Assembly (NCBI GenBank): GCA_030605125.1
Contig: JAUWBD010000001.1
Span: forward strand, 1 to 64,000
DNA length: 64,000 nt
Source of the DNA: Verrucomicrobiota bacterium
GTDB lineage: Bacteria; Verrucomicrobiota; Verrucomicrobiia; Opitutales; Opitutaceae
Direction of reading: 5' to 3'
Part shown: positions 1,984-37,846 of the stretch, piece by piece
Layout of the letters: the number at the start of each line of letters is the position of its first letter
How positions within the stretch are numbered: position 1 is the first letter of the stretch
The notes under the pieces: generated by a model
The model's input: only the letters and a program-made list of their open reading frames with translations
The model's database searches: none
Told to the model about the DNA's origin: nothing
Made by a program: the position numbers and the translations under genes

Positions 1984-1989
1984 GCAACG

Positions 1990-2553: not shown

Positions 2554-2556
2554 GCC

Positions 2557-6128: not shown

Positions 6129-6150
6129 CGCATCCCACGCAATCGCATTT

Positions 6151-6167: not shown

Positions 6168-6211
6168 GATCGCGATCTATCCGCTGCGCGACGGCGCACC
6201 GCTTTCTTGAC

Positions 6212-6231
6212 CAACGGGAATAATTCCGTTG
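6212..6231. promoter_or_regulatory. Palindrome CAACGG-GAATAATT-CCGTTG immediately upstream of a GntR regulator; candidate autoregulatory operator
   Basis: Perfect 6-bp arms, 14 bp before the ATG at 6245. Confidence 0.5.
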
Positions 6232-6244
6232 ATTTGGTAAAAAC

Positions 6245-7357: not shown

Positions 7358-7689
7358 GCCGGCCACCAAACTCCGGATTTGCGGAACGGCGAACGGTGCG
7401 CGTTCCGGCCCGTATCCCCGTCTTTGCGGGCTCTTCCGTTGGGTTTCTAATGACTTGACAATTATGCCAAGTTAAGGCCTCCTACGGCCACCCCACAACC
7501 CCACCCCTCCCCAGCCGGTTCGCGGCTTGTCTCTTCCGCGCGAACTGTTTCCCGACGCGAGCGTCCGCCCCACCGCGCTCCGCCTTTCCCCACCCCGGCC
7601 GTGCGCAAACATGCGTCGCGTGGCTTTGCCATGCCGCTTCCCGGCGCACATCCGCCCACCCCACCAAACCCCCACCACCCCACCCACCC

Positions 7690-9921
7690 ATGAAACCCTC
7701 GCATGGTCTGTTTCGCGCTTTGCTCGCGCTCTGCTTCGCCCTCTGCGCCTTCGCCCTCGTCCACGCTCAACCCGCCCCGCAACTCCCGGTGCTTGCGTGG
7801 CAGCAGCGCTCCGACTGGCTCAACGTGAAGACGATGTTTGGCGCCGTCGGCAACGGCGTCGCCGACGACACCGCCGCCATCCAGGCCGCGCTCAACCTCA
7901 ACAACAACTCCTACAATCCGCGCGCCGTCTATCTGCCGCCCGGCACCTATCGCATCACCTCGACGCTCTCGCTCACCCAGAACACCGGCGGCCTCATCAT
8001 CGGCCATGGACGCGACACCCGCATCGTCTGGGACGGCCCGCTCGACGGCGTGATGTTCTGGTCCAATGGAGCCACCCGCTTCCGCTTCGTCGGCATCATC
8101 TGGGACGGACGCTCCATCGCCGGCATCGGCGTCGAGCACAACTCGCACACGCTCTACGAGACCTCCATCCGCCATCAGAACGAGCAGTTCATCGACTTCC
8201 GGATCGCCGGTATCCAAGTCAATGATACGAGCCCCACCCACTCGGCCGAAATCTACGTGGACCACTGCCTCTTCTATCGCTGCAACAAGGGCTTCTCCAC
8301 GCTCAAGTGGAACTCCTACAACAATATCTTCAACGGCTGCGAGTTTCACGACAACAACCACGGCATCTACTTCGGGCCCGGCAACGGCCATGTGCGCAAC
8401 TGCCGCTTCGAGCGCAGCGCCATCGCCGACATCCACATGCAGCCGCACTCCAACTCCGTGCGCCGCTGCGTCTCGATCGGCTCCCACCGCTTCATCGAAA
8501 TCACCCAGACCAGCAACAACACCCCGCTCATGGTCCAGGACTGCCGCGTGGACGGCTGGACCTCCCCGCAAGGCGCCATCTACGCGCGCAGCCGCGGCCC
8601 GCTCGTGATCCTGGATACCGCCTTCACCAACCCTCCCAGCACCGGCGCGCCCATCGTCCTCGCCAACTGGTCCGGCTGCAAACAGGCCGTTGTCGTCTCC
8701 AACAACAGCCACCCCGGCGCCACCGCCCTGATCGCGCCCGGCGCCAACTCCACCATCCACAGCGTCCCCGCCGGCGCGCTCGGCGCGAGCGCCATCACGA
8801 CCGCGACCCGCTTCTTCAAGCAAAGCGCCTTCGTCCCCACCTCGATCATCGACGTGAAGGTGGACCACGGCGCGCTGGGCAACAACGTCGCCGACGACAC
8901 CGCCGCCATCAACGCCGCCATCGCCGTCGCCAAAGCCCGCGGCAACGGCTGCATGGTCTATCTGCCTCACGGCACCTACAAGCTCGGCGGCACGCTCAAC
9001 CTCCAAGGCGGCGTCGGCGACTTCGCCATCGGCGGCAGCGGGTTCCGCACCATCCTCAACCACACCAGCAACCCCGGCATCCTGCTCAAGGACCCGCAAA
9101 ACCTGCGCGTCGAGCAGATGCGGTTCACCGCCGCCGACTCGATCACCAAGGTCCGCCAGACGAGCACGGCCAACACCGCGTCCTTCGCCAGCTACGACGG
9201 GCTCTACGTCAGCAACCCGAACTTCCACCCGATCAACAACCCCACCTACGGCCTCTCGATCATCGATCTGCCCGCGCAGGCCAGCGTGTTGATCGACCAC
9301 CTCTACGGCGACGCCTGGTTCCGCAACAGCTCGCAAGGCATCATCCTCGCCAATTTCTGGATCGACGGCGCGCTCCGCGTCTCCAACTCCGGCGCGCCCC
9401 GCACCGGCTTCCTCGGCGTCAACACCCGCGTCACCTCGCGCAACGCCTACGACACGATCGTCTATGACCACGAGAGCGTGGTGATCGGCGACGCCTACAC
9501 CGAGCAGACCGAGCGCGCGCTCAACACCCAGAACTCCAGCTCCACCGCGAGCGGCCGCATCACCATACGCTACACCAAGCTGGCCGCCAGCCAGGTGCCG
9601 ACCATCGCCATCGGCAACTACCGCGGGCGCGTCTCGATCTTTGGCGGTCTGTTCTATCCGCAGAATCCCACCACGATCACGCACAACGGCACCAACCCGC
9701 TCGACCTGATTCTCTGCGGAAACTCGTTTTTCTACCAAGCTCCGCAGATCTCGCTCTCCCCCAGCGCGACCCCGGTCTTCGCCAAGAACATCATCCAGGA
9801 CAACGCCAACGGCATGTTCGAAAACACGATCACCGCCGCCGGTGCCGCCGAGCTCGCCGCCGCGCTTGATCACTTCCGCGAGCTCGGCCTCGCCGACCTC
9901 GCCCTGAACCACGGGCTGTAA
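7690..9921 (+). CDS. Secreted protein with two tandem pectate-lyase-3-type right-handed beta-helix domains
   Basis: Signal peptide MKPSHGLFRALLALCFALCAFALVHAQ. Two copies of the FGAVGNGVADDTAAIQAAL / HGALGNNVADDTAAINAAI motif with downstream Y[LI]PxGTY. Confidence 0.85.
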   Translation: MKPSHGLFRALLALCFALCAFALVHAQPAPQLPVLAWQQRSDWLNVKTMFGAVGNGVADDTAAIQAALNLNNNSYNPRAVYLPPGTYRITSTLSLTQNTGGLIIGHGRDTRIVWDGPLDGVMFWSNGATRFRFVGIIWDGRSIAGIGVEHNSHTLYETSIRHQNEQFIDFRIAGIQVNDTSPTHSAEIYVDHCLFYRCNKGFSTLKWNSYNNIFNGCEFHDNNHGIYFGPGNGHVRNCRFERSAIADIHMQPHSNSVRRCVSIGSHRFIEITQTSNNTPLMVQDCRVDGWTSPQGAIYARSRGPLVILDTAFTNPPSTGAPIVLANWSGCKQAVVVSNNSHPGATALIAPGANSTIHSVPAGALGASAITTATRFFKQSAFVPTSIIDVKVDHGALGNNVADDTAAINAAIAVAKARGNGCMVYLPHGTYKLGGTLNLQGGVGDFAIGGSGFRTILNHTSNPGILLKDPQNLRVEQMRFTAADSITKVRQTSTANTASFASYDGLYVSNPNFHPINNPTYGLSIIDLPAQASVLIDHLYGDAWFRNSSQGIILANFWIDGALRVSNSGAPRTGFLGVNTRVTSRNAYDTIVYDHESVVIGDAYTEQTERALNTQNSSSTASGRITIRYTKLAASQVPTIAIGNYRGRVSIFGGLFYPQNPTTITHNGTNPLDLILCGNSFFYQAPQISLSPSATPVFAKNIIQDNANGMFENTITAAGAAELAAALDHFRELGLADLALNHGL

Positions 9922-16120: not shown

Positions 16121-19100
16121 TTAATACAGCTCCAGACGGACTCCGCGAATCTCGCCGTCCATCTTGGGGATGCCCTTCTTGAAGTAGTCCTGGTAGCTGC
16201 CGTGGCGGGGATGGTAGAGGTCGATCTCGTTGACCCCCGTCTTGAGCCAGTGGTCCACGCGGACGCCGTAGCCGGCGAGCTGATCGCGCGCCTCGCGGAA
16301 GTAGCCGGTCTGGTTGAGCATCACGGCGCCGACCTGCGGGCTGCGCTCGTCCTGCTCCACCACGATGCGCACGGTCCGCCCCTCCCAGTGCTTGGGCAGC
16401 TCGAAGGTGCGACGAAGGCCGAACATGCCCTTCACCTGTCCGGGCAACTCGCTCCGTCCCTTCTGCTCGTGCCATGAGAGGGCGTTGGTCCAGGAGCCCG
16501 CGAGATCGAGGACCTCGACGGGACGCGGCACCGCCCAGAGGTAGAGCAGGCCGCCGGGACCGCCCTCGCGGGGCTCGCCGGTCACCTCAAGGGCGAGATC
16601 GAGCGGGCCTTGGGCGGCGGCCTCGCTGACATCGACAATCATCGGGTTGGCCAGCGGCACGTCCGCGAGCCGACCGTTGATCCAGACCTTGCCGCTGCCA
16701 CCACGCACGCCCATCTGGTGGAAGCCGGCCTTGAAGCCAAGGAGCACACGCTTGTTGGACTGAAGCCATTCGGCGGGGACCTCGACGCGCCGCAGGTATT
16801 GCGCGGAGCGAGTGTCGGTCCAGCCGCGGGCGAGCCAGGTGCCGAGGCGGGCCTTTTCCCAGCCGGTGGCGGTGAAGCCAGGCTTTTCCCAGCCGTCGGC
16901 GATCGGACGCGGGTTGGTGGAGCGTCGCACGAGCCAGCCGTCGGAGAGATCGCGTCCATCTTGCCCCAGCGCCTGTGCCTCCTGGCGCATCAGCGGGTAG
17001 GTGTCGCCCAAGCCGGAGGGCTCGAGACGCAGGGCGCGCCAGGTCTTGGACTGGCGCTCCAGCCAGACGAAGGGCGCGCGCAGTCCGGCATCTTTTCGCA
17101 TGACGGCGAATTGGCGGATTTGGAAGGGGCCGAAGCTCTGATCGCGAAGGATGAACTCTCCCTCGGCGCCTCGCTCGGCCGGCACGGTCTGGTCGAAGCC
17201 GCCGGCGAAATCGGCCACCGCGGTGCCGGTGGTTCCGCGCAGGGTGAGGTTGGCGGTGAAGCGGGTCTCGAGATCAAGGTTGCGGTCCACGCCGAAGGCG
17301 GAGGCGAGGAAGACATCGTAGAGGCCGTTTTTGCTCTCACGCTTGTCCACCCAGATCTGCGGATTGTCGGAGCGCGCCTCGAGCGACACGCCGAGCGACA
17401 CCAGCATCTCCTCGAAGAGCGCCTGGCGGCCCTCCTCGTTGACGAAGCTTCCGCCCTCGTCCTTCACGCGCAGGTGCAGCGGCGAGCCGAGCCAGATGAG
17501 GCGGCCTTTGCCGTAGGCGATCTCGGCGATCGCCGTGCCGCCGTCGGTCCACTTCGCGATCGAGTTGAGCTGGGCCGGCGCACCCTCGATGCGGATGGCG
17601 CCGGAGCTGGCCTGTCCCTGAAAATCGATCGCGACACCACTGCCCTCGACGGTGCGACCGCGAAGCGAAGGCAGGAGCGTCTGCTCCTGCGCGAAGGTCA
17701 TCTTCGCGGTCGGCGAGCGGCTGAAGTCCGAGCCGTCGATGCGGTAGTCCTCGATGCGCAGACCGAAAGCTTCCGCGAGCGGCCAGCTGTTTTGCTCCAC
17801 CGGCGAGTGCCGTCCGGTGTTGAACTGGGCGACGAAGACGCCGCCTCCGCGGACGTAGCGCTTGATCGCCGCGACGCGCTCCTCGGACACGACGGAGGTG
17901 GAGCAGTCGATGATCACGGGGACGGCGTCGGCGAGCCCCTTGTCCATGTCCGGCCCATCGACCAGCACCGGGCTGAGGCCGGCGCGGGGCAAGGGGCCGC
18001 GCGAAGGATCCCAGCGCCAGATGTCGTGGTTCATGAAACGCTCGCCCTGCTCGACATCGCGAAGCACGCCCACGGAGGGCGCGACAAAGTCCACCTTGCC
18101 GAAGGTTTTGAGGAGGGACGCGTTGTCCTTCCACCATTGCACGACGTCCTTGCGGCTCCAGAAGTCGCGCTCGACGTCGAAGACATAGTCGTGCGCATCC
18201 TGCCCTTCCCAGAAGAGCGTGGCGAACTTGTGCTGGATGCGGTTGGCGTTGGCCGAAGGCTGGCCGCCCTCGCTGCTACCGGGGATGCCGCGCAGGCGGG
18301 AGTAGCCCTTGTAGTGCATGGGGCGAAAGAAGGCCCCCTGCCCCGTGAGCTGCGGGTAGGCGCCGTATTGCTCGAAGAGATCCATCGCCGCGGCCTGGAA
18401 CATGTGCGGCGTCATCACCTTGATCGGACGCACGGGATCGATCTCGCGCATAAACTGAAGGTAGATGCGCAGCATCTCGAGTTTCTCCCAGATCAGGTAG
18501 TCGTTCCAATCGACCCAAAACTGGTTGAGCTCGCGGCTGGCAAAGGGGAACTCCTCGCCGTGCTCCTTGCTGAGGAAGGTGCGGTAGATGATGCGGCCGC
18601 CATGCGAATAGAGCGCGAAGTGGTTGGCGCCGGGGCGGAGCAGGCCGGTCACGTCGAACTGCGTGTGCTTGTTCAGGTGATGACGCGGATTGTTGGTGGC
18701 GGAGCCTCCGGCGCGGCGTCCGTTGACCCAGAGTTCAACCGGCCGTCCTTCCTTTTCGGTGAAGGGTTGGACGTGGAGGTAGATCGTCCGGTCGCCTTTC
18801 AGGAAGTCGGCCGGCACTTCCTCGTTGAAGCGGAACCAGAGGGGTGCGGTATCGCCCTCGGCGCGGAACTGGTTGTGCACGCGGCGGCTGGTGCGAAGAT
18901 CGCTCGCCCACGTGGAATCGTCGAAGCCGGGGCGGGTGAAACCGCGCTGGTCGCCCGCCTCGGCATTGACGCCGGGCAACCAGCGCCAGGGGCGCGCATC
19001 GAGATCGATCACCTCGCCGCGACGGCCAAAGAAGTAGGCGTGTTCCGGATACGGGAAGGTTTCCCAGCTCTTGGCGTCGATGCCGAAAAGGCGGTTGGCC

Positions 19101-20125
19101 TGCTCGAGCGAGTAGTTTTTCACCGTGCGCAGATAGAGCGGGAATCGCGTCTCGGCCTGCGGCGGCACGCGGCGCGGCTCGCTGAGGAAGAACTCTCCGT
19201 GCGGCTCCATCCACCCGATGAGATTCGGGTCGTCCTTGAAGTGGTTCATCACGGTGCGAAGACCGTGCAGCTCGATGGCCTTGGCGGCATCGGAGGCGAT
19301 CTGCGTCGCGTAGTATCCGTCGGCCGACGGCAGATCGCGTGCGGGCAGCGCGGCCTCGGGCGCGGTCTCCACGTGGTCGGCGAGGTCGCCCACGCTGCGC
19401 CCCCACCACGGCGGCACGCCACCCCAGATCATGAAGCGGTAGGGAGCGCCTATCTCACGCGCGCCGGCGACGATGTTCTCCGCCGTGCTGAGGTCGTAGG
19501 CGTTGGGCGCGAAGCTCGCCGTGAGACCGCTGCTGTGCGGATGGACGTTGACCACCGGGATGTGCTCGCGGGCGAAATCGCGCACCTCGGGTGATTTCGT
19601 CGGCGGCATCCACCACATGCCAAGAGCCAGGTTGTCAAAACCGTCGAGGTATCGCGGGTGCGCGCCCAGCTCCGGGCCCGCCCAAGATTTCGCGTTGAGC
19701 GCGGTCACGAAGGGTGTGAGCGAGTCGCGCGTCGGGCCGGACAACACGAAGACCTCGCGCTCCTTCACGCCCACCGCCCAGAGGCCGGAGTCGGCGATCT
19801 CGAGCACCGCACCCGAAATGCGGGGGTCCGCCGCGGGACGGGACGCCGCGTAGGCCGTGAGATCGGCGAGATACTTCGAGGCGACGATGCGAGCCTTGGC
19901 GGCATCCTCACAGGTGAACCGCACCAGAGACACTCCCGAGGCCCATCGGCCGCCCTTCGCCTCCACCAGACCGAAGCCGCGCATCTCGAAAGGGCCCGCG
20001 GACAACTCCTTCGCCGGCGCCTCGCGGTATCCGCGGAGGAGCGGCTCGGCGGAGAAACCGACGAGGGTACATGCTAGCAAAAGGGCGAGCACCGTGGCCC
20101 GCACAGGGGGAGCAATCATCGTCAT
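16121..20125 (-). CDS. Giant secreted GH42-like (beta-galactosidase-like) protein with C-terminal beta-sandwich domains
   Basis: 1334 aa with signal peptide. TIM-barrel-like region with DPNLIGWMEPHGEFF, SSEGGQPSAN and a trimerisation-like domain (YVRGGGVFVAQFNTGRHS). Paralogous to the split gene 33798-37846. Confidence 0.65.
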   Translation of the reverse strand: MTMIAPPVRATVLALLLACTLVGFSAEPLLRGYREAPAKELSAGPFEMRGFGLVEAKGGRWASGVSLVRFTCEDAAKARIVASKYLADLTAYAASRPAADPRISGAVLEIADSGLWAVGVKEREVFVLSGPTRDSLTPFVTALNAKSWAGPELGAHPRYLDGFDNLALGMWWMPPTKSPEVRDFAREHIPVVNVHPHSSGLTASFAPNAYDLSTAENIVAGAREIGAPYRFMIWGGVPPWWGRSVGDLADHVETAPEAALPARDLPSADGYYATQIASDAAKAIELHGLRTVMNHFKDDPNLIGWMEPHGEFFLSEPRRVPPQAETRFPLYLRTVKNYSLEQANRLFGIDAKSWETFPYPEHAYFFGRRGEVIDLDARPWRWLPGVNAEAGDQRGFTRPGFDDSTWASDLRTSRRVHNQFRAEGDTAPLWFRFNEEVPADFLKGDRTIYLHVQPFTEKEGRPVELWVNGRRAGGSATNNPRHHLNKHTQFDVTGLLRPGANHFALYSHGGRIIYRTFLSKEHGEEFPFASRELNQFWVDWNDYLIWEKLEMLRIYLQFMREIDPVRPIKVMTPHMFQAAAMDLFEQYGAYPQLTGQGAFFRPMHYKGYSRLRGIPGSSEGGQPSANANRIQHKFATLFWEGQDAHDYVFDVERDFWSRKDVVQWWKDNASLLKTFGKVDFVAPSVGVLRDVEQGERFMNHDIWRWDPSRGPLPRAGLSPVLVDGPDMDKGLADAVPVIIDCSTSVVSEERVAAIKRYVRGGGVFVAQFNTGRHSPVEQNSWPLAEAFGLRIEDYRIDGSDFSRSPTAKMTFAQEQTLLPSLRGRTVEGSGVAIDFQGQASSGAIRIEGAPAQLNSIAKWTDGGTAIAEIAYGKGRLIWLGSPLHLRVKDEGGSFVNEEGRQALFEEMLVSLGVSLEARSDNPQIWVDKRESKNGLYDVFLASAFGVDRNLDLETRFTANLTLRGTTGTAVADFAGGFDQTVPAERGAEGEFILRDQSFGPFQIRQFAVMRKDAGLRAPFVWLERQSKTWRALRLEPSGLGDTYPLMRQEAQALGQDGRDLSDGWLVRRSTNPRPIADGWEKPGFTATGWEKARLGTWLARGWTDTRSAQYLRRVEVPAEWLQSNKRVLLGFKAGFHQMGVRGGSGKVWINGRLADVPLANPMIVDVSEAAAQGPLDLALEVTGEPREGGPGGLLYLWAVPRPVEVLDLAGSWTNALSWHEQKGRSELPGQVKGMFGLRRTFELPKHWEGRTVRIVVEQDERSPQVGAVMLNQTGYFREARDQLAGYGVRVDHWLKTGVNEIDLYHPRHGSYQDYFKKGIPKMDGEIRGVRLELY

Positions 20126-21468: not shown

Positions 21469-22869
21469 ATGAAACTCGTCTTTGTCGGCGGCGGCGCGCA
21501 TCGCGTTCTCGCCATCTCCCGCAGCATCCTCGCCCTCCCCGGCGCCCTCGAATCCGGCGAGATCTGCCTCTGCGATCTCAACCTCGCCCGCGCCGAAGCC
21601 ATGGGGCGTATGCTGAGGCAGAGCCCCGAGTTTCGCGCCTCCGGTGGACGCATCACCTGGACCACCTCGCTCGACGAGGCGCTCCCCGGCGCCGACGTGG
21701 TCGCCATCATCATGCCCGCCGCGCCGAAGGAGTTCTTCCTTCGCGCCCGCGGCCGCGCCCTCCACCACGGCTTCATCAGCTCCGACAACGTCTCGCCCAC
21801 CGGCGCCCTCTGCGGCGTCAACGTCGCGCCGATCCTCCTCGACCTCGCCCGCCGCATGGAGCGCCACTGCCCGGAGGCTTGGCTGCTCAATTTCGTCAAT
21901 CCGGTGGCCGTGCTCTCGGGCATGATCAACAACCACACCCGCATTCGCTGCCTCGGCGTGTGTGCCGGCTTCATCAACCACCTCTGGGACATCCCGCGTC
22001 TCTTCGGCCGCGACGAGGAAGCGTCGCAACTCCAGGTCGAGACCGCCGGCATCAACCACCTCAGCTTCATCCTCAAGGGCCGCTGGGAAAACCAAGACCT
22101 GCTCCCCGCGCTAGAAAAGCGCCTCGCCGCCCCCGACTGGCAGCCGCCGCAGCTCCAGCCCTGGTGGGGCGAAAGCGGACAACGCAACATCACGCGCAGC
22201 GTAAAGCGACTCGCCCGCTTCTGGCGCGAACTCGGCGTGCTCGTCTTCTCGACCGAGGGCGACGGCATGGATCACCTCATGTATGACGAGGTCGTCGAGA
22301 CCGAGCGCGCCCGTCACCGCGACCTCACCGACGCCGAGATCGCGGACTCCGTCGCCACGACCGCCACCCGTCGCGCCGAGTTGGACAAGACCTTCCAAGC
22401 CTGGCTCGACCGCCCGCTCGACGACGCCTTCTGGGCCGAACACTGGAAAACCGATCCACGCTTCAAACGCGCCGACGAGGACATCTTTGTCCGCATTTTC
22501 GCCGCCCTCGCCGGTGTTTGCGAGGCGCGCGTGGCCACCAGCTACCTGAATCGCGGCGCCATCGCCGGCATCAAGGACCGCCACGTCGTCGAATACACCC
22601 AGACCATTCGCGGCCGCAGCCTCGCCCCCGTCACCCCCGGCCTCGAAATCCCGGACGTGGTCCAAGGTATCACCTGCGGCATCGCCGCCCACCAGACCGC
22701 GCTCGGCGACGCTCTTGCGCACGACGATCCCCGCGAGCTCGCCCGCGCCCTCCTCACCTACCCGATCGCGCCCTACTCGCGGCCGCTTCGCGCGCTCTAC
22801 CGCGAGCTGCTCTCGCTCTCCTGCTGCTCCTTCACACCCGCCGCCCGCCAGGCCGCCAGCCACCTCTGA
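21469..22869 (+). CDS. Glycoside hydrolase family 4 (NAD-dependent alpha-glucosidase/galactosidase/galacturonase class)
   Basis: KLVFVGGGAHRVLAISRSIL Rossmann start; LLNFVNPVAVLSGMINNHTRIRCLGVCAGF; AGINHLSFI. Confidence 0.85.
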   Translation: MKLVFVGGGAHRVLAISRSILALPGALESGEICLCDLNLARAEAMGRMLRQSPEFRASGGRITWTTSLDEALPGADVVAIIMPAAPKEFFLRARGRALHHGFISSDNVSPTGALCGVNVAPILLDLARRMERHCPEAWLLNFVNPVAVLSGMINNHTRIRCLGVCAGFINHLWDIPRLFGRDEEASQLQVETAGINHLSFILKGRWENQDLLPALEKRLAAPDWQPPQLQPWWGESGQRNITRSVKRLARFWRELGVLVFSTEGDGMDHLMYDEVVETERARHRDLTDAEIADSVATTATRRAELDKTFQAWLDRPLDDAFWAEHWKTDPRFKRADEDIFVRIFAALAGVCEARVATSYLNRGAIAGIKDRHVVEYTQTIRGRSLAPVTPGLEIPDVVQGITCGIAAHQTALGDALAHDDPRELARALLTYPIAPYSRPLRALYRELLSLSCCSFTPAARQAASHL

Positions 22870-22881: not shown

Positions 22882-25560
22882 ATGCGCTCCGCCCTACCCC
22901 GCCTGCTCGTCCACGCTGCCCGCGCCGTCTGCGTCGGCCTCGCATTCCTGCCCTTCCTTGGCTCGCGCCTCGACGCCAGAAAAGATGCGCCGGACGACAC
23001 CGTCCGCGTCTCCGTCGTTTCGCGCTTCTTCGATCCCAACCAGCCCGAGTCCGCCCCGCAATTGATCGAGATGATGCGCCGCGATCCCGCGCTGCGCATC
23101 GAGATGTGGAGCGGCCTCGCGCTTCCCGGCGGCGGCGGACGCTCGGCGATCATCATGTCGATCGCCGGCCAGACCTCGCCCGACATCATGGAGTCGTGGT
23201 TCCACGTCATCCGGAACGACATCGACCAAGGCTTCCTCCACCCGCTCAACGAATGGATCGGCGAAGACCTCGACGGCGACGGCGAGATCAGCCCCGAGGA
23301 GGCGATCTGGCCCGGATGGAAAGACGTGCCTCCGCTCTGGCGCAAGGTCGCCACCGTGAACGGCAAGATCTACGGCCTCCCCCAGGCCGCCGCCTCCACC
23401 ATGGGCGTGCTCTTCCGCACGGACCTCGTGCGCAACGCCGGCCTCGATCCCAACCAGCCGCCGACCACCTGGGAGGAGTATCACTACTGGGCCATGCGCC
23501 TCTCCGACCCCGGCGTGCCGGTGCCGGGCCGCCTCTACAACCCCGGCCAACGCGCGGTCGCCATCGCGCCCCACGGCTTCACCTGGCTGCCCTGGGTGCA
23601 GAGCGCCGGCGGCGAGCCCATCGTGCAAACCCGCACCGATCCGCGCACCGGGCAGGCCCACGTGTTCTCCCTCGACGCCGAATCGTTTGTCCTGCCCGAC
23701 GGCACCGACCTCGCCGACATCGCCCCCGAGTTTCGCGCCAACTTCGACTCGCCCGAGGCGATCAAAACCGCCGCGTTCTACCACCAACTCCGCTGGGGCC
23801 GCTGGATTCTCGACCCCGAGACGCACGAGCCGATCGCGCTCGACTCCGCCGCGCTCGCCGCCGGCGAGGTCGTCGTCGGCGGGCGCACCCTGCGCTTCAC
23901 CCCCGCCGAGGTTCGCCAAGGGGTCGCCCGCGCCCACCTCGGCTCGCGCGACACCGACCCGCTCCAGCTGCTTGGCCGCGGCGAAGTCGCGATGACCACC
24001 TGGTTCGTCACCGACATCCTCAACACCGGCAACACCTCCAATCTCAACCCCGACCTGCTGAGCTGGTTCCCCATCCCCGCCGGCTCGCCCGACGCCTCGC
24101 CTGTCGTGCAAGTGCAGCGCCACTACGCCGCCATGGCGGTCAACGTCGGCCTGCGCCCCAAGGCCGAGCGAGACCAGGTCTGGCAGGTGCTCCAGGGCGT
24201 GACCGACGGCGCCGCCCGCGACGCCAACTCCGCCCGCATGGTCGCCTTCGGCCTCGCCCGCTTCGTCGATCCGCGCACGCTCACCCGCCTCGGCTACGAC
24301 GACTACCTGCGCAGCGTGCCCGCCGCGCTCCGCGACGCCTACAACCGCATCGACCGCGGCGAGATCAAGAGCTTCACCGAGCCCTACCAGGGCTTCTGGA
24401 CCACGATGGACGGCGCCATCAACCGCGAGGTCCTCGGCATCCTCATCTCCCAGAGCGGGGAAAACTTCGACTACGCCGCCGCGCTCCGCGCCGTGAACCG
24501 CAAGGCCAACTCCGGCGTCATGTTCGCGCGCCCCCAGGCCGAGCTCGACGAGCACCGCCCGCTGGCCCGCGTCATCTTCGCCGTGCTCGCCGCGCTCGTC
24601 ACCGGTCTCGCCGTGATGTTCGTGCGCTCGATCTTTAAGAAACGCCCCGTCGCCTCCACCGGCATGGTCAACAACCCCGTCCTGCCCTGGCTGCTGCTGC
24701 TGCCCGCGCTCGCGCTGATCGGCACCTGGGGCTACTACCCGCTCGTCCGCGGCATGGTGATGGCCTTCCAGAACTTTCGCATCGCCGGCGAGAGCCCCTT
24801 CGTCGGGCTGGACAACTTCATCACCCTCGCGCTCGACCGCAGCTTCTGGGCGAGCATGGGCACCACGGTTTACTACGTCGTGCTGACGATGCTGATCTCC
24901 TTCACGTCGCCCATCGCGCTCGCCATCATGCTCTCCGAGGTGCCGCGCGGGAAGATGTTTTACCGCACCCTCTTCTTCCTCCCGCAGGTGACCAGCGGCC
25001 TCGTGATCGCGCTGCTCTGGAAACTGATGTTCGACCCGAGGCCCAACGGCATCTTCAACCAGGTCGTATCCATCCTTAACTACATCCCCGGGGTGGAGAT
25101 CGGCGCGCAGTCCTGGCTCGAGGACCCCTCGATCGCCATGCTCTGCGTCGTGTTGCCCGGCGCCTGGGCCAGCGCCGGCATCGCCAGCCTCATCTACCTC
25201 GCCGCGCTCAAGAGCGTGCCCGAGGACGCCTACGAGGCCTGCGAGATCGATGGCGGCGGCATCCTCGTGAAGCTGCGCCACATCACCCTGCCGGTGCTGA
25301 TGCCGCTCATCATCATCAACTTCCTCGGGGCCTTCATCGCCACCTTCCAAAACATGGGGAACATCTTCCTGCTCACCTTCGGCGGCCCCGGCGAGGCGAC
25401 GATGGTCGTGAGCATGAAGATCTGGATCGAGGCCTACAGCAACCTGCGCTTCAGCATCGCCACCTCGATGGCGTGGATCGTCGGCGCCTGCCTGATCAGC
25501 TTCACCTTCCTCCAGATGCAGGTGCTCAAACGCGTGGAGTTCCGCCGCAGCAAAGACTGA
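22882..25560 (+). CDS. ABC transporter solute-binding protein fused to MalF-like permease
   Basis: N-terminal extracellular binding-protein-type sequence (ADIMESWFHV.., TTWEEYHYWAMRL). Then a TM linker and a six-TM permease with the EAA-type loop EDAYEACEIDGGGILVKLRHITLPVLMPLI. Confidence 0.85.
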   Translation: MRSALPRLLVHAARAVCVGLAFLPFLGSRLDARKDAPDDTVRVSVVSRFFDPNQPESAPQLIEMMRRDPALRIEMWSGLALPGGGGRSAIIMSIAGQTSPDIMESWFHVIRNDIDQGFLHPLNEWIGEDLDGDGEISPEEAIWPGWKDVPPLWRKVATVNGKIYGLPQAAASTMGVLFRTDLVRNAGLDPNQPPTTWEEYHYWAMRLSDPGVPVPGRLYNPGQRAVAIAPHGFTWLPWVQSAGGEPIVQTRTDPRTGQAHVFSLDAESFVLPDGTDLADIAPEFRANFDSPEAIKTAAFYHQLRWGRWILDPETHEPIALDSAALAAGEVVVGGRTLRFTPAEVRQGVARAHLGSRDTDPLQLLGRGEVAMTTWFVTDILNTGNTSNLNPDLLSWFPIPAGSPDASPVVQVQRHYAAMAVNVGLRPKAERDQVWQVLQGVTDGAARDANSARMVAFGLARFVDPRTLTRLGYDDYLRSVPAALRDAYNRIDRGEIKSFTEPYQGFWTTMDGAINREVLGILISQSGENFDYAAALRAVNRKANSGVMFARPQAELDEHRPLARVIFAVLAALVTGLAVMFVRSIFKKRPVASTGMVNNPVLPWLLLLPALALIGTWGYYPLVRGMVMAFQNFRIAGESPFVGLDNFITLALDRSFWASMGTTVYYVVLTMLISFTSPIALAIMLSEVPRGKMFYRTLFFLPQVTSGLVIALLWKLMFDPRPNGIFNQVVSILNYIPGVEIGAQSWLEDPSIAMLCVVLPGAWASAGIASLIYLAALKSVPEDAYEACEIDGGGILVKLRHITLPVLMPLIIINFLGAFIATFQNMGNIFLLTFGGPGEATMVVSMKIWIEAYSNLRFSIATSMAWIVGACLISFTFLQMQVLKRVEFRRSKD

Positions 25561-25621: not shown

Positions 25622-27784
25622 ATGCCTCTCCTCTCCAGCGTGGGCAGCAAGACCCTGTCGCAACGCCTCTTCGTCGCCTTCATCTACGCCACGTTGACCT
25701 TCTTCGGCGCCACCATGGCGGTGCCGTTCATGATCATGCTGACGAGCTCGGCGTCCAACAGCTACGACTACGACCGCTACTCGATCGTGCCGCGCTCCTT
25801 CTGGTCCGCCGAGGACCGCTTCATGAAGGGCACGCCCTATTTCGCCGGCCCCGGCGAGCTCTTCCCCGACAAGCCCGCCCTCTGGACCTCCTGGCGCGCC
25901 GTCGGTCTCGATCGCGACACCGCCGACCAGCTCGCCCGCCGCTACCTCGACGCCTCCGCCCAGGAGCGGGCTCTCTGGAGCCGCCAGGCCGCCGACTACT
26001 CCGACTTCGCGCTCGATTACCCGCTCGTTGACTCCGAAGCCGTCTTCAACCGCGAGATCGCCTCCGAGTTCATGCTCCAGCACTACGTCGAGCAGGCCCT
26101 TCGTCGCGATCCATCCCTCGCCGACGAGCGACGCTCGGTGCGTGAACGCGCCGCCCTCGCCCTCCTCTCCGAGACCTGGGGCGTGCCGGTCGAGAACTAC
26201 ATCGCCATCCGCTTCGACCGCGAGGCGCGCTACCCCATGGCGCAGCAGTCCTGGGTCCCGCCCGGCGGCCCCAAGTGGGACGACTTCATCACCCTGCGAC
26301 ACGCCCTCCGGCACGGGCTGCAGACTCCCGGCGTGCTCGGCGAGTGGCGCTCCCACCTGCGCAAACACGGTTATACCAGGGCCGAGATCCAGCGCCTCAG
26401 CCCGCCGCCCGCCGACGCCCCCGCCGAGGTCGCCGCGCTCTGGCGCGAGTTCGCCCGCACCCAGGCCCCGCTCTCCCCCGTCATTCCGCTCTCCTTGCGC
26501 AAGACCTGGCTCCACTACCTCGCCGGCGACGACGCCCGCGAGATCCTCGGCCTCGACGCCAGCCAGCGCTTCGACATCGCCCGCTACAATACCCTCGCCG
26601 GCACCGCCTACGCCCGCCTCGAGGACACGCCCTTCCCGCTGCCCGCCGAGGGCTTTGACGGCCTGCGACCGCTCTGGCTCCGCTTTATCGAGGAGCAATA
26701 CCCGCTGCGCCTCACCCACCTGCGGCCCAGCCCGGGCCTCCGCACCCGCTACGAGGCCTTTCTTCAGGCCAACTACGAGAGCGTCGCCTCGCTCAACCAG
26801 ATCCTCGGCACGCACTACGCCGACTGGTCCGAGGTGCCGCTGCCCGAGAGCCTGCCCGAGGCGCGCCCCGGCCAGGCCGGCGGCCTGCGCGAGGTGTGGT
26901 TCGCCTTCGCCAAGAGTCTTCCCGCCGCCGACCGCCTCGTGCACTCCGGCGACGCCGCCTGGCAGGCGTATTTGCGCGGCAAATACGGATCGCTCGAGGC
27001 GCTCAACGCCGCCTACGGCTGGAACCTCCGGCTCTGGGAGGAGGCGCGCATGCCCCTCGACAAGGCCTACGCCGTCACCTACGGCCAGCACCGCTTCGCC
27101 TTCGCGATCGAGCCGGTGCGTTTCAACTACAGCACGATCCTGCGCTTCCTGCTCGACCAGGGAAACTCCATCCCGGTCACCCTGTGGCTTATCGTGCTGA
27201 GCATCGCCACCTCGCTCACGGTCAACCCGCTCGCGGGCTACGCCCTCTCGCGCTTTAACCTTCGCATGAAGGACAAGATCCTTCTCTTCTGCCTCGCGAC
27301 CTCCGCCTTTCCCGCGATGGTCAGCGCCATCCCGGGCTACCTGCTGATGCGCGACCTCGGGCTGCTCAACACCTTCATGGCGCTCGTGCTGCCCGGCGCG
27401 GCTAGCGGAATGAGCATCTTCATTCTGAAAGGCTTCTTCGACTCGCTGCCGCAGGAGCTCTACGAGGCCGCCACGATCGACGGCGCCAAGGAGTGGCAGA
27501 TCTTCCTTTTCGTCACGATCCCGATGGTGACGCCGATCCTCGCGATCAACGCGCTAAACGCCTTCATCGCGGCCTACGATGGCTGGGCCTGGGCGCTGAT
27601 CATCGCGCAGGACAAGAGCATGTGGACGCTCTCGGTGTGGCTCTACCAGGCCAACTTCTGGTGGTCGCAATCCCCGTGGATCACGACCGCCGGCTTCGTC
27701 GTCACCTCGATCCCCACCCTGCTCGTCTTCGTCTTCTGCCAGAAGATCATCATGCGCGGCATCATCGTGCCCTCGATGAAATGA
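25622..27784 (+). CDS. MalG-like ABC permease with ~450-aa periplasmic insertion after TM1
   Basis: TM1 FVAFIYATLTFFGATMAVPFMIML; permease core from IPVTLWLIVLSIATSLTVNPLAGYALSRF; EAA loop QELYEAATIDGAKEWQIFLFVTIPMVTPIL. Residues ~47-510 are an extra hydrophilic region. Confidence 0.85.
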   Translation: MPLLSSVGSKTLSQRLFVAFIYATLTFFGATMAVPFMIMLTSSASNSYDYDRYSIVPRSFWSAEDRFMKGTPYFAGPGELFPDKPALWTSWRAVGLDRDTADQLARRYLDASAQERALWSRQAADYSDFALDYPLVDSEAVFNREIASEFMLQHYVEQALRRDPSLADERRSVRERAALALLSETWGVPVENYIAIRFDREARYPMAQQSWVPPGGPKWDDFITLRHALRHGLQTPGVLGEWRSHLRKHGYTRAEIQRLSPPPADAPAEVAALWREFARTQAPLSPVIPLSLRKTWLHYLAGDDAREILGLDASQRFDIARYNTLAGTAYARLEDTPFPLPAEGFDGLRPLWLRFIEEQYPLRLTHLRPSPGLRTRYEAFLQANYESVASLNQILGTHYADWSEVPLPESLPEARPGQAGGLREVWFAFAKSLPAADRLVHSGDAAWQAYLRGKYGSLEALNAAYGWNLRLWEEARMPLDKAYAVTYGQHRFAFAIEPVRFNYSTILRFLLDQGNSIPVTLWLIVLSIATSLTVNPLAGYALSRFNLRMKDKILLFCLATSAFPAMVSAIPGYLLMRDLGLLNTFMALVLPGAASGMSIFILKGFFDSLPQELYEAATIDGAKEWQIFLFVTIPMVTPILAINALNAFIAAYDGWAWALIIAQDKSMWTLSVWLYQANFWWSQSPWITTAGFVVTSIPTLLVFVFCQKIIMRGIIVPSMK

Positions 27785-27819: not shown

Positions 27820-28953
27820 TCACTGCTCCGCCAAGCGCACCGTGGCAGGGAAGCCGGAGACGCACGCGCTCTCGAAGCGCAATTCCTGTCCGGCGTTGAG
27901 CCGTGGGATGATCTCGACCAGGTGATCACGGTCGGGCTCCAGATCCTGCGCGATGAACTGCACGAGACGGAAGTTGCCGTTCTTGGCGTTGGCCCCGGCG
28001 TCGTAGGCGGTCGGCTGTCCGCCGTTCACGCTGACTTCGTAGCGACCCGATAGCGGCGTGGCCTCGCCGAAGAGCAGCACATGCCTGCCGCGCACCACCA
28101 GGCGGATCGGCACGGCCTCGGGCCCGCGCGCCAAGGTGACATCGTCCAGCCAGCGCGACATCGTGAAATCAAACGCCATCCCGAGCCGGTGCGGACGGCC
28201 CACACTCCAGCCGACCGGTAGCGTGCCCAATTTCGAGAGCCGATTGCGCGTCGCCGTCAGGTAGGTATCCGGGTGCAACATCCTCTCCGGCACGCGGCAT
28301 ACCTGCTCCTCGCCCACCGCACGCGCAAACGCGCCCCACACCGCCTCCGCATACAGCGCGTAGCCTTCGTCGCCGGGGTGCGTGACGTCGGGCGCCATCG
28401 GCCAGAGCGTGTCAGGATCGGCCAGGCCCGCCGCGACGCGCTCGCGCATCAAGGAAACCGCGTCGCCCGAAGGCAGACCGTAGGCGGCCGCGATCTCGCG
28501 GTGCAGCGCGTCGAGTGGGCGCTCGGGAGCGTCCGGCAAGACATCCCGCTTGGCCGCGAAGATCGCCTGCACCACCGGCACGCCCGCGCCGACCAGGCGG
28601 CGCACGAGCGATTCGTAGGCGGCCAGGCGATCCGGAATGACCGGCGCGTAAGGCGTGTCGTTGATCGTGAAATCGAGAAACACCAGGTCCGGACGACGCG
28701 CCAACACATCGCGCTCGAGACGAAAGGCGCCGAGCTGCGAACCCGTTCCGCCGATGGCCGCGTCCCAGAACCGGAAGTGTGCCGCCGGATAGTGCTCCTC
28801 CAATTTGCGCGACGTCAGCGCCCGATAGGAGGTGAGCTGCGGGTCCGTGGCCTGCGCGCCCCAGGTAAGGCTGCCGCCGAAGAAAACGACGCTCAGACGT
28901 TCGCCGGCGCGGGCGCGGCGATCAAAATCCCCAAAGTGGGCGCGGGGGCTCAT
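27820..28953 (-). CDS. SGNH/GDSL-family hydrolase
   Basis: SVVFFGGSLTWGAQA; DFTINDTPYAP; DVTHPGDEGY. Confidence 0.75.
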   Translation of the reverse strand: MSPRAHFGDFDRRARAGERLSVVFFGGSLTWGAQATDPQLTSYRALTSRKLEEHYPAAHFRFWDAAIGGTGSQLGAFRLERDVLARRPDLVFLDFTINDTPYAPVIPDRLAAYESLVRRLVGAGVPVVQAIFAAKRDVLPDAPERPLDALHREIAAAYGLPSGDAVSLMRERVAAGLADPDTLWPMAPDVTHPGDEGYALYAEAVWGAFARAVGEEQVCRVPERMLHPDTYLTATRNRLSKLGTLPVGWSVGRPHRLGMAFDFTMSRWLDDVTLARGPEAVPIRLVVRGRHVLLFGEATPLSGRYEVSVNGGQPTAYDAGANAKNGNFRLVQFIAQDLEPDRDHLVEIIPRLNAGQELRFESACVSGFPATVRLAEQ

Positions 28954-30380
28954 TGAACGTCGCCCTCCTCCGGCAGGCGCGCGCCCTGCGCGAGCAGCGC
29001 GGCGCGGACCTCGGCGTAGGGCACGCTCGCAGGGCGCGCGCCGGCCGCGGTGGATCGAGCGGCCAGCGCGGCGACCACGCCACCGGCCTGGCCGATGGCC
29101 ATGGCGATGGGCGTCACGCGAAACGCGGCCGCGGCCTCGTGCGTCGCGCTGATGCAGCGACCGACCACGACGAGATTCTCCGGCCGCGCGACGAGCAGGC
29201 TGCGCAGCGGAATCTGGTAGGCGAGCGCGCCGGCCACGTGGCTGGTGTTGGTCTTCTCGCCCGAGGGCGAGTGGATGTCGATCGGGTAGCCGCCGAGCGC
29301 GATGGCGTCGGGAAAGGGCCGCTCGTGCAGGAGGTCCTCGGCGCTCAGGCGGTAGAGGCCCTCGACGTGGCGCGACTCGCGCACGCCGATCTTCGCGGCG
29401 GTGTCCATGCGCACCGCGTGCTCAAAGCCGACGCAGCGCGTGCGGAGAAACTGGAAGATCTGCGCGCATTGCCGACGGCCGAGAATCTCGGCGCGACTGA
29501 GCTGGAAGGGATCGGTGGCGTCGAGGCCTTGGATGCGTGAGGTGTTGACGATCACGACGCCGGGCACCGCGGTCTCGAAGAACAGCACCTGATCGCGCGG
29601 CACATCCACCTCGCCCGCCTCGCGCGCGGCGCGCCAGGCGCCGAGAAAACCAGCCAGGCTGATTCGCGGCGAAGTGGCGAGGCGCTGCTTGCCGGTCTCG
29701 ACCCCGTGCTCCCAGAGAAAGTCGTCCGGGTGCGTGAGCGCGTAGGCGCGGATCGCGGCGGTGTCCACGTTGGCCAGCTTGAGATTCATCGTCATCGGCT
29801 GCGCCAGGCCGTCGCGTTCGCGGCCGGAGACGAAGGGTGCGCCGGCGCGCGCGGCGAGATCGCCGTCACCGGTGGCGTCAACAAAGACGCGGGCCGAGAG
29901 CGCGACGAGCCCGCCTTTGTTGCAGACGACGACGCGCGCCACGCGCTCGCCCTCGCGTTCCACTGCCGCGAGCTGGGTGTGGTAGAGGATCTCGCCGCCC
30001 GCCTCGGCGAGCATGGTCTCGAGCTCGATCTTCAGCTCCTCGCTGTCGAAGGGCGTGACCGTGCTGCAGTAGGTCGTGGTGTCGGGGATGTGGCCGGGGC
30101 TGGCGCCGCGGCTCACGAGCCGGCGGATGATCTCGTCGGCGATGCCCTCGACAACCTGGCGGCCGGCCTTGTTGTGAAAACTCATCATCGGGCCGACGCC
30201 CATCGAGGTGAGCGAGCCGCCGAGAAAACCATGCTCCTCGACCAGCAAAGTGCGCGCGCCCAGGCGGGCGGCGGCAATGGCGGAAACCGCGCCGGAGACA
30301 CCGCCGCCCACGACGACAACATCGTAGGCGGGGCCGGTGGCGACAGGGAGCGGGAGGGCGGTGGCGGAAGCGGCGGACAT
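28950..30380 (-). CDS. FAD-dependent oxidoreductase
   Basis: DVVVVGGGVSGAVSAIAAARLGARTLLVEEHGFLGG; VFVDATGDGDLAARAGAPF. ATGA overlap with the SGNH gene. Confidence 0.85.
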   Translation of the reverse strand: MSAASATALPLPVATGPAYDVVVVGGGVSGAVSAIAAARLGARTLLVEEHGFLGGSLTSMGVGPMMSFHNKAGRQVVEGIADEIIRRLVSRGASPGHIPDTTTYCSTVTPFDSEELKIELETMLAEAGGEILYHTQLAAVEREGERVARVVVCNKGGLVALSARVFVDATGDGDLAARAGAPFVSGRERDGLAQPMTMNLKLANVDTAAIRAYALTHPDDFLWEHGVETGKQRLATSPRISLAGFLGAWRAAREAGEVDVPRDQVLFFETAVPGVVIVNTSRIQGLDATDPFQLSRAEILGRRQCAQIFQFLRTRCVGFEHAVRMDTAAKIGVRESRHVEGLYRLSAEDLLHERPFPDAIALGGYPIDIHSPSGEKTNTSHVAGALAYQIPLRSLLVARPENLVVVGRCISATHEAAAAFRVTPIAMAIGQAGGVVAALAARSTAAGARPASVPYAEVRAALLAQGARLPEEGDVQ

Positions 30381-33797: not shown

Positions 33798-36700
33798 TCA
33801 GTAAGGCTCCGAATAGATGCTGAGACCGACGGAACGAACGTCGCCTCCGCGGGGCTCGTCCCAGTGGCGGATGAGCTCGATGTGGTTTTCCGCGCCAAAG
33901 CGGATCCAGGGCGTGACGTTGAGTTGGAAACGATCGGCCGTGATGCGGTGGTAGCGACGCACGAAACGACCGTTGACCAGCGCGCCGATGATCCGCCCGC
34001 CGGCATCGACATCGAGGTAGGCGTGCGGCGTCTCGACGCCGGGGAAGCGCGCCGGGACCTGCACCATGCGCTTCATCGCAAAAGCCGAGGAGCGACCGGG
34101 GAAGCGGACCGAGCCGGTCCAGCGCAAGGCGTCGGGACTCTCGCTCCACTCGCCGGCCAGATCGACGCGCGCCGCGGGCTCGGGCCAGAGCCACAGCCAA
34201 GCGTCGCCGCGCACGCCGGACAGCGTGCCGGTCGAGTGAATCACGACGGCGAGCTCGTGGGTGGAGCCGGGTTTGAGGGAAGGCGAGGTGAAGCCGTCGA
34301 TGCCGTTTCTCGACTTCGCGTGGATGACCTTTCCATCGAGGTAGATCTCGCCCTCGCCGACGAAGTAGTTGCCGGAGTTCGACTCGAGGGTGAGCGTGAC
34401 GTCACCCTTCCAGTTTTGCGGCACGGTGAACGAACGGCGCACCACGACGGTGCCAGGCTCGGGCCAGCCGGCAGTCGGCCAAGCGCCGAGGCGGGTCTTT
34501 TCCCAGGCGGCGGTGCTGGAGGTAGGCGCGAGGAGCGCGGCGATGTCCTCGCCGGGCTTCACCACGTGGCGGGCCCAGCCGTCGGTGAGGTCGAGCGTGT
34601 TGTCCACGCGCACGGGCTCGGCGGGCGGCGCGTCGCCGCGGGCGGTGCCGCGCCACCAGTTGCGTTGCAGCGTGAACCAGTCGGCGGGCGCCTGGCCGAT
34701 GGCGTTGCGCGGCGTCATCACGGCGCGCGTTTCCAGCGGCTTCAGCTCAAGCGCGAGAGCGCCATTGGTGATCGGCAGCGAAGCCTTGTCGCGCAGATCG
34801 ACGCCCCAAGTGGCGGAGCTGCCGGTGAGCTGGAGCCGGCCCTTGACCGCGGCGCTGTCGCTCGGATTCCAGAGCACCCAGATGTCGTAGAGTCCGTTGT
34901 TGGAGACGTAGTGGCGGACGAGCGTGCCGTCGCGATCCGCCTGCCAGCGGAAGGGCAAGGGAGCGATGTTTCGCCACTCGAGCAGTTGGGTGAGAAGATT
35001 GGTAAGCGCGTCGTTGCCGTTGGCGGGCAAGGCGCGGAGCGAGGCGGCGTCGCGGCGCTTGGCATCGATGCGGTCGGGAATGGAGTCACCGGAGAACTTG
35101 CAACCCACGTGGACGATGTAGCCCTCGCCGAGGCGACGCACTCCCAGGGCGACGCTGCCGTCATCCCAGAGCAGGACGTCCTGCGCGTCGTCGGCCACTT
35201 TGCGCAGGCGGAGGCCGTTGGCGCGAACGCCATCCCACTCGCCAGCGAGCACGGTTTGCCCAGGGGCGGACGCGAGGCGGCCCGATTGGCGGATGCGACC
35301 GTTGTCGTCCAAGGCGTCGATCCGATCGACGGCGTAGCCGGTCAGGCGCGAGATGGGCCAGGCGTCGGCCTGGTTGGTGGCGTGGCGACCGGTCTGCACG
35401 AAGGTGACGAAGGTGCCGCCCGAGCGCACGTAGTTCTCCACGTCGGCCAGCATGCGCTCGCTCATGATGGAGCTGTTGGTGTCGATGATGACGCGGTAGG
35501 CCGCGGCGTCGCCGTTGGGGAAGGAGGTCTCGCTGAGGCCGTCGCTGGGGTAGTAGTCGCGCAGGTTGGCGCGGACGTTCCAGCGCCAGTAGCCGGCGCC
35601 CAAGGTCTTGTTGGGATCGAGAATCCAGGGCAGCCGTTGAGCCGGATGTTTTCGGTCGAGTAGAAGGCGGCGACCTCGGCCTTGGGCGCGTGGTATTTGC
35701 CGATCAAGCGGAAGAGCGGGAGGTCCTGCTTGAGGTGCTGGCGGATCTCGGCGTTCCACATCAGCGAGCCGATGTGGATGAAGTAATCGATGCCCTGCAC
35801 GCCCTCGGTCATCCAGAGGCCTTGGAAGGTCTTGAAATGCTTTCCGTCGCGGGCGGGGCCGCCCGGCTCGACGGACATGGGCAGATTGCGCCCGCGCATG
35901 AGCGACGGGAGGTAGTCGGCCCAAAAGGCCGCCATGTAGCCGGTGTTGTGGAAATTGGAGCCGTAGCGGCCGGCGAGGTCGTTGATGTCGTCGGCGTAGG
36001 CGTCGGGCGCCATCTGCACGACCTGGTGGTTCGGATGAGTCTTGCGGATCGTCTCGAGGCCGCGGCGCACGGACTCCTTGCGCATCCAGCGGTGCCACAT
36101 CGCGAAGTCATACCACTGCGCGTTACGGCCCTTCTCGAAGAACGGATAGCCGTGCGGTTCCTCGCCGGAGAGGTAAACGCGGTAGGAGAGCTTTCCCTTC
36201 GGCAGGCGCAGCGCGAGGACGTTGCCCTCGGGCTTGAGGTGCTGGCTCACCTCGACGGCGGTCCAGTGCGGGGTCATGTGCCGGACCGTGGATTCGTCCA
36301 CGACCTTGTCGTTGAGCACGGCCTTGAACTGGTCGTTCGAGGTCAGGTTCATGCTCCAGACGTAGAGCCAGACCTGCGGGTGCTTCGCGAGCCAGTCGCG
36401 GGACACGGAGAAGTGCCGGCGCATCACGCCCGGGCGGCTGGGGATCACAAGGCTACGCTCGTCGCCGGGAGCCTGCAGCGAGGCCCAGCCGGAATCGTCG
36501 AAGCGGCTGGAGAACCACTCCTGCGGCGCGCCCAGAGAGGGGATGGCTCGCGTCCAGTTCGTGTCGGTGAAGAAAAGCAGGCGCTCGCCCTGCGTGTCCA
36601 GGTTCGGGGGCAGATCCTCGTAGGCGAGTTTCCACTCGCCGGTGAGATCGACGGCGTCCTCGCCCCAGCCGGCGAAGGAGGCGATCTCCTGCACGCGCAC

Positions 36701-37846
36701 CTCGTCCCAGGACGCGTGCGCGGTGCCCCAGGCGGCGTTCAGCGCGCGCAGGTCGTCGTATCGGGTTTTTAGATACTTGCGGTAGCTGGCGTCGGCGACG
36801 GAGCCGTATTCGACGAAGATCGAGTGCGCGACGTTCTTCAGCTCGCCGTGGGGCTCGAGCACGGTGGTGAGATTGGGCTGGTCCTTGAAGCGGCGCAGCA
36901 TGGTCTCGGCCATGTCGAACTGGATCTGGTTGGCCTCCTTGGCGGCCCAGGAAGCGGTGCCGCGGCCGCCGTAGAAGGGCGTGCCGATGCGGAAGAAGGA
37001 GCCGCCAAACTGCGGCATGGGCTCCATCATCTGCTCGCGATAGCGGTTGGTGAGCCAGGTGGCCTCGATGCCCTCGGCGACCTTGAGGTTGAGGCCGAGC
37101 GGGAGGCCGCGCGCCTCGGTCTGCGGGACGATCCAGTCCCACCAGACGTCGCGGTTGAGGCCGCCGGCCGTATCCATGGCGTTGGGGCCGGTGAAGACCA
37201 CCAGGCCGGTGCGGTCCATTTCCTCGGCGAACTGAAACTCGGAGAGGAAGTCGTAGCCGCCCTTGGCCTGCGCGGGCTTGTAGTCTTTGGGCGGGTTTTC
37301 CCAGGTGCGGTGGTAGGCGCGGAAGCCCCAGCGGTCCCAGCGGTCGAGATACATCGGCACCTCGGTGTCGGTGGCGAACTCCCAGCCGGCCCACTCCGGG
37401 CCGGCGAGCGCGGCTGCGAGCGCGGCGGACTCGGCGGCGGAGAGGATGCGCACCTCGGAACCCCGGCGCACGGCGACGATGCTCCCCTGCCCTTCGATCT
37501 GGCGGGCGGTCGCGGTCTGGCCCGTGCGGCCGAGGGTGATCTTCGATTCGCTGACCTTGGGGAGCAGCGACAAGTCCGAGAGATATTTCGCCTGGAGCAG
37601 CTTGGCTTTCTCCGGCGACTCGCAGCGGATGGAGAGCTGGCTCACACCGCCGCGCAGGTCGGTTTTCACCCCCGATACCGTGCCGTAGCCGCGCAGATCG
37701 ATTTCGCGAAATACGCCATCATGCGCGACGGCTGAAGTGGACGCGTCCGCACGCGGCTTCGCATCGGGAGCCGCTTGGGCAAAGGCGGTGGCGCCGCCAA
37801 GGAGCAGAGCGGCGAGCACGCGTTTGATCGGGGTCGGAGAGATCAT
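33798..37846 (-). pseudogene. Giant secreted GH42-like protein split by a single-nucleotide frameshift
   Basis: The N-terminal ORF (37846 to ~35630, ...AFYSTENIRLNG) and C-terminal ORF (~35630 to 33798, WILDPNKTLGAGYWRW...) are contiguous in two frames. Joined length would be ~1349 aa, matching the 1334-aa paralogue 16121-20125. Confidence 0.75.

Follow-up and report, generated by a model that had tools for sequence, protein, structure and literature searches.

The open reading frame at 25622-27784 (+ strand) of the window, the 64,000-nucleotide stretch of Verrucomicrobiota DNA analysed here, encodes a MalG/UgpE-type (CUT1) permease with ~440 extra residues between TM1 and the permease core. 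The insert is predicted to fold into a periplasmic domain of tandem repeats, and profile searches support a relation between the repeated module and a short helical element of GH42, GH50, GH14 and GH167 glycosidases. We hold the chances to be about even that a sugar permease took up a glycosidase helical element and amplified it into a non-enzymatic periplasmic domain which, with a tethered SBP, makes up a distinct sugar ABC importer architecture across the PVC group and Armatimonadota.

The MalG permease and its inserted domain

The gene divides into the following parts.

25622..27784, + strand: MalG-type permease, 720 aa, with an expanded P1 periplasmic loop (ORF and profile matches)
25655..25747, + strand: TM1, helix, residues 12-42 (AlphaFold2 secondary structure; hydropathy)
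25748..27157, + strand: inserted periplasmic domain and start of the TM2 helix, residues 43-512 (AlphaFold2; hydropathy)
27158..27781, + strand: conserved permease core, residues 513-720 (PF00528, NF008231)
27455..27487, + strand: EAA-type coupling loop ELYEAATIDGA, residues 612-622 (sequence conservation)

The frame is intact for 720 aa from its ATG. MalG, UgpE and GlcU profiles match residues 517-716, and since the MalG match begins at residue 517 with MalG position 79 (likewise ~79 in E. coli MalG), about 440 residues are extra; a long insertion after TM1 and before the permease core, as originally predicted, is borne out by this alignment. The TM2 region starts near residue 516, as compared to about 80 in ordinary MalG, and the short P1 loop that goes with a total length of about 270-300 aa (a usual trait, not a strictly defining one) is absent. 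The core matches PF00528 (BPD_transp_1) at residues 540-712 with 50.6 bits, above the curated cut-off of 26.4, and in the EAA loop E615, A617, D620 and G621 are invariant or nearly so across 79 family sequences. NF008231, the MalG equivalog model, gives 85.6 bits, below its curated cut-off of 261; judged by sequence, the protein is MalG-like but not the maltose MalG equivalog. The core fold matches solved MalG (3rlf_G, E 1.4e-8 over 208 columns), and among solved structures the closest by sequence is AlgM2 (alginate importer), followed by E. coli MalG.

Hydropathy reveals no TM segment within residues 43-500, so the insert is periplasmic by topology. AlphaFold2 models the whole 720-aa protein (alignment of 79 homologues) with pLDDT 93.1 and pTM 0.89, and the insert alone (residues 43-508) with pLDDT 96.4 and pTM 0.94. 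The predicted insert fold is compact and mainly helical, and three-residue strands recur at the unit ends (138-140, 287-289, 365-367 and 438-440). Disorder, which had been named as the outcome that would speak against the insert, is ruled out by this model, and we regard the insert as a folded domain on the strength of the prediction. It is rich in Y and W, and its most strongly conserved positions (W, F, P, G, N, D) look structural. Foldseek found no PDB match to the insert model at E<=0.001 (best E 0.15), and TM was mostly 0.12 or below among the PDB matches listed. The top eleven of these non-significant matches are GH50 agarases; lower matches are an exo-beta-D-glucosaminidase, a beta-1,2-glucosyltransferase and a beta-amylase, amid unrelated helical proteins. 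The viral fold search (BFVD) gave nothing below 0.001. As modelled, the insert appears to have no whole-domain counterpart in the PDB; the comparison covered the PDB and BFVD, and we do not claim a new fold.

Repeat units and their kinship with glycosidases

Six units can be placed on the insert by predicted secondary structure, more than the three originally quoted, and a single related module lies in another protein of the window.

25808..26047, + strand: unit U1, residues 63-142, weak repeat (AlphaFold2 pattern; hhalign U1-U5 1e-4)
26048..26326, + strand: unit U2, residues 143-235 (hhalign U2-U5 2e-10, U2-U6 3e-10)
26327..26494, + strand: unit U3, residues 236-291, mostly the helix-B half (hhalign U3-U4 2e-8, 27 columns)
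26495..26728, + strand: unit U4, residues 292-369 (repeat HMM 2.6e-15)
26729..26944, + strand: unit U5, residues 370-441, also matched by PF02449 at 374-414 (repeat HMM 2.3e-18)
26945..27097, + strand: unit U6, residues 442-492 (repeat HMM 9.6e-16)
36692..36796, - strand: single related module, residues 351-385 of the GH42-like protein 35462-37846 (repeat HMM E 3e-10; PF02449 match to the protein)

The module of ~67 aa consists of helix A (aWqdFLkakYgSieaLNraYGt), an extended stretch (dYasFeEiplP) and helix B (LRadWetFv). A family-built repeat HMM of 67 positions, whose E-values are optimistic because its training included the units of the 720-aa MalG itself, matches residues 292-368 (E 2.6e-15), 371-439 (E 2.3e-18) and 442-498 (E 9.6e-16), and a half unit at 249-285 (E 2.5e-4). 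The three degenerate units first read from the sequence are real by these matches; the LR..W..F half said to follow each of them is present in units 4 and 5 and missing from the third quoted unit. Unit profiles were obtained by cutting the family alignment at the predicted unit boundaries and were compared profile against profile. U4-U5 and U5-U6 each matched at E 6e-16 and U4-U6 at 1e-9, and column-shuffled controls for the strong pairs scored <=15 as compared to 43-73 for the real ones. We count three tandem units as clear and up to six by structure, of which U1 and U3 are weak. Family members have 3-6 units each by the repeat HMM.

PF02449 (GH42) scores above its cut-off in the 720-aa MalG, covering profile positions 151-196 of 376 only, and it also matches 39/79 family inserts at E<=0.01 (best 3e-15), the unit matched differing from member to member. 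Across the 79 inserts Pfam gave GH42, GH14 and two weak chance families only. When a 25-unit profile was run against 177,635 PDB sequences, 27 matches came back at E<0.1, and all are glycosidases or closely related enzymes (GH42, GH50, GH14, GH167 or related; 6ptm is an uncharacterised, GH42-like protein). The resemblance of the repeats to glycosidase sequence, a central point of the original prediction, is thus upheld by both searches. The best match is residues 155-216 of 1KWG (E 2e-9), and the matched GH42 stretch is a local helical element after the acid/base strand. By residue numbering, this region appears to include the arm that enters the sugar pocket of the neighbouring subunit. Opposite the fWSQR stretch of GH42 the MalG module has a five-residue gap; in 1KWG that stretch carries Trp182 by numbering, which we take to be the likely counterpart of Trp-200. 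Because the MalG units are gapped at this Trp-bearing stretch, it is the element, not the enzyme, that is shared. We rejected the insert as an enzyme: there is no barrel and no visible catalytic site, the profile match is short, and the AlphaFold2 model is helical with three-residue strands.

Over ~2,170 ORFs the repeat HMM gave only three non-MalG matches, among them the GH42-like ORF at 35462-37846 (minus), and the LNaawGT-type wording that had been noticed in both this protein and the MalG insert is confirmed at E 3e-10. With the unit profile, tandem copies in the window's genome are found in the two MalGs only, with isolated copies in several further large ORFs, the GH42-like protein included. 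The occurrence of single copies in several glycosidase families and of tandem copies in one permease clade suggests a possible transfer from glycosidase to permease. A weak single module match (residues 322-362, E 0.0065) is also seen in the 1334-aa protein at 16121-20125 (minus).

Family, partner and genomic setting

A scan of named genomes returned 80 loci, distributed over Kiritimatiellota, Lentisphaerota, Verrucomicrobiota, Armatimonadota, Planctomycetota and Firestonebacteria; the search for other MalGs with long post-TM1 loops therefore uncovered a large family, and the insertion is not confined to this protein. In the permease-core tree one branch (SH-aLRT 100, length 0.77) parts 98 insert-bearing rows from all short or other-long MalGs, the insert side holding these 98 and six cut rows. 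As the rows had been found with insert-bearing queries, we repeated the test with a core-only profile blind to the insert. It found members in 79/243 genomes of the phylum, with 98 of its 101 matches falling in ORFs of 490 aa or longer; the other three ORFs have 231, 380 and 401 aa, and at least two of them are probably cut at contig ends. On these sequence comparisons the insert-bearing MalGs form one clade, with a single origin of the MalG domain. Across the clade, the part before the core is about 250 to 580 residues long, with a rumen Kiritimatiellae group at the short end, and the number of units therefore probably varies. An already defined family had been named as a counter to novelty; Pfam, NCBIfam and the literature searched hold no entry or paper for the loop domain or the fusion.

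The two copies in the window's genome fall beside a Chthoniobacterales protein, within a group drawn mostly from Kiritimatiellota and Lentisphaerota. The system is rare in the window's own genus and family, which fits horizontal transfer without proving it. A cultured member of the family is Oligosphaera ethanolica DSM 24202 (L124, 2565-7443; SBP-MalF ORF at 2565-5447 and MalG at 5479-7443), with two insert-MalG genes in its genome. At ten loci (L094, L098, L100, L102, L109, L117, L118, L120, L129, L141) a lone insert-MalG sits amid unrelated, partly housekeeping-like genes; SBP-MalF is elsewhere in most such genomes, and the domain is shortened in some. That one MalG serves many SBP-MalFs in these 'solo' genomes was considered but finds no support, as most show a single recognisable SBP-MalF elsewhere.

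In relatives, other long upstream MalG extensions (L044/L006, L049, L050, L051, L052, L055) have no match to the insert profile and mostly look like overprinted frames. Apparent shorter inserts in Rhizobium plasmids (tblastn, query 301-720 or 347-720) were dismissed: both genes that were checked encode a MalG of 278 aa, with an alignment that simply runs on into the upstream gene. The MalGs of two relatives, L048 (3336-5042) and L047 (3160-4926), resemble the family in having a long post-TM1 insert beside an SBP-fused MalF, but their insert does not match the repeat-domain profile and reads like a beta-sandwich, and their MalG core lies in another clade.

Two genes upstream of the MalG gene share its orientation.

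21469..22869, + strand: GH4-family glycosidase gene (Pfam match)
22882..25560, + strand: single-chain partner protein, 892 aa, with an SBP_bac_1 domain joined through a TM tether to a MalF/UgpA-type permease (profiles; TM windows)

Among complete operonic MalFs, 39/42 have the SBP in the same ORF, and in the other three SBP and MalF occupy overlapping frames, as a frameshifted fusion would give. The operonic MalF partners of insert-MalGs form one clade (SH-aLRT 100). SBP-MalF fusions of other clades go with short MalGs, so the SBP fusion arose more than once and the MalG domain once; seven loci (L049, L050, L051, L052, L057, L058, L053) carry such fusions, apparently independent, with a MalG of normal size. 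The association of insert-MalG with SBP-MalF (Fisher p 7e-7) involves a trait with one origin and is not independent evidence. Fused MalF cores are mostly about 280-430 residues long, most of them too short for a P2-like domain, and MalF-P2 appears to be absent from the fused partner.

We compared the divergence of the insert with that of the SBP across 38 pairs and found r 0.95. Once both TM cores are controlled for, a partial r of 0.72 remains (0.60-0.66 under Kimura, cubic and rank controls), as compared to -0.01 to 0.17 for the insert with either TM core; within the two sub-clades the insert-SBP correlation is 0.22-0.56. This closer correspondence of the insert with the SBP of the partner chain than with its own membrane core is suggestive, and the correlation may partly reflect two fast-evolving soluble domains near saturation.

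The minus strand of the window carries a polysaccharide-degradation cluster (13970-40134) with acetylesterase, GDSL esterase, FAD oxidoreductase, GntR/periplasmic-binding-like regulator, GH42-like and pectate-lyase-like genes, a setting that makes a plant-type oligosaccharide the likely class of cargo. The system occurs twice in the genome: the other copy (69% / 74% identical; the MalGs 69%), at L040 (G000:C191:84001-100000, 1122-8995), has SBP-MalF, insert-MalG, a MalK-type ATPase and FAD_oxidored on one strand. That ATPase (ABC_tran, OB_MalK and TOBE_2; ~86.7-87.9 kb of G000:C191) is the only OB_MalK-type ATPase found in the genome and probably serves the window copy as well. No ATPase lies beside the window copy, and its FAD_oxidored gene (28950-30380) is on the other strand.

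Proposed role and comparison with known systems

The insert domain most likely docks the SBP. With the SBP tethered, P2 apparently absent and P1 enlarged roughly tenfold, it is simplest to take this loop as the docking surface. The P1 loop would have grown by tandem multiplication of the ~67-aa module into a docking wall that steers the one tethered SBP to the MalF-MalG mouth and takes on the work done by P2 and P1 in E. coli; the domain may also line the route taken by a bulky or branched plant oligosaccharide. Our confidence that this is a CUT1 MalG whose P1 became a rigid ~450-residue repeat domain docking the tethered SBP over the pore is evenly poised. The constant pairing with SBP-MalF fusions and the insert-SBP distance correlation argue for it. 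SBP-fused MalFs of other clades work with a short MalG, so tethering alone does not require the domain, and some Kiritimatiellota and related genomes place the insert-MalG away from the SBP-MalF gene. A weaker candidate, still to be taken seriously, is that the domain mainly binds and guides glycans, its repeats holding long oligosaccharides near the pore as a second stage after the SBP. The kinship of the module with a glycosidase element, the surrounding polysaccharide-degradation genes and the abundance of Y and W are consistent with this role, but the units are gapped just where GH42 has the likely Trp-200 counterpart and the strongly conserved positions mostly look structural.

It is rather improbable that the domain docks some other periplasmic partner (a processing enzyme, peptidoglycan or an outer-membrane component), the importer then being part of a larger degradation complex. 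The size of the domain would suit such a role and the 'solo' insert-MalG genes of small genomes point beyond one operon, but no constant third partner gene was seen and insert divergence tracks the SBP. As to origin, the domain might instead be unrelated to glycosidases, its likeness to GH42 having arisen by convergence on a common helix-turn motif, a view that draws on the short (35-60 aa) helical match and on the fold search without a significant whole-domain hit; this is already disfavoured and we think it unlikely, as the 27 PDB matches are without exception to glycosidases or close relatives, PF02449 is found in about half of the inserts and in several different units, and even the top non-significant fold matches are GH50 and GH42-type enzymes. 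Spurious overprints account for other long upstream ORFs in this high-GC genome (e.g. L044, L049), and the frame could likewise be a mis-called ORF, an assembly-error fusion or a disordered filler loop. We consider an artefact of this kind next to impossible, with 98 distinct homologues from many assemblies in one clade, a second copy in the genome and a confident fold. The docking of the tethered SBP by the expanded P1 is the reading that we prefer.

Among type I ABC importers the maltose importer is the textbook example, and its binding protein is reported to touch the MalF loop P2. The MalG core fold and the EAA loop are common to E. coli MalFGK2-MalE (2R6G, 3RLF) and the present system. 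The E. coli importer has a short MalG P1 and a free SBP held by MalF-P2, whereas here the SBP is fused to MalF, P2 is apparently absent and the MalG P1 is a domain of ~450 aa. Contact of E. coli MalG P1 with the binding protein has been reported, to go by the title of Daus et al. 2007 as cited in PMC3150292. This branch appears to have rebuilt the part of the importer that meets the SBP, with the SBP on one half and a repeat domain on the other, and offers a natural test of the roles of the P1 and P2 loops. AlgM1M2SS (4TQU) and LpqY-SugABC (7CAF) have a CUT1-type permease pair as well, but AlgM2 (305 aa) and SugB (274-278 aa) are of normal length and lack the insert domain. In OpuA the SBP is also covalently tethered to the transmembrane domain via an extra TM helix (PMC11065425); OpuA is a glycine-betaine importer with SBDs on its two TMDs and has no MalG-type loop domain.

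The core, the ATPase type and the SBP type are those of an ordinary CUT1 importer, and the new part is the insert domain, for which neither Pfam, NCBIfam nor the PDB has a family. The importer branch with tethered SBP and MalG domain is widespread and apparently undescribed; a third of the sampled genomes in one phylum carry the system, and the analysis corrects how a gene family is annotated in degraders of complex glycans from plants and algae. GH42 enzymes (1KWG, BiBga42A) and GH50 beta-agarases (4BQ2) contain one copy of the helix A/extended/helix B element within complete TIM barrels with catalytic Glu residues (two in GH42), whereas the MalG insert has the element only, multiplied and lacking both barrel and active site, which would be an instance of a transporter domain made from recycled enzyme parts.
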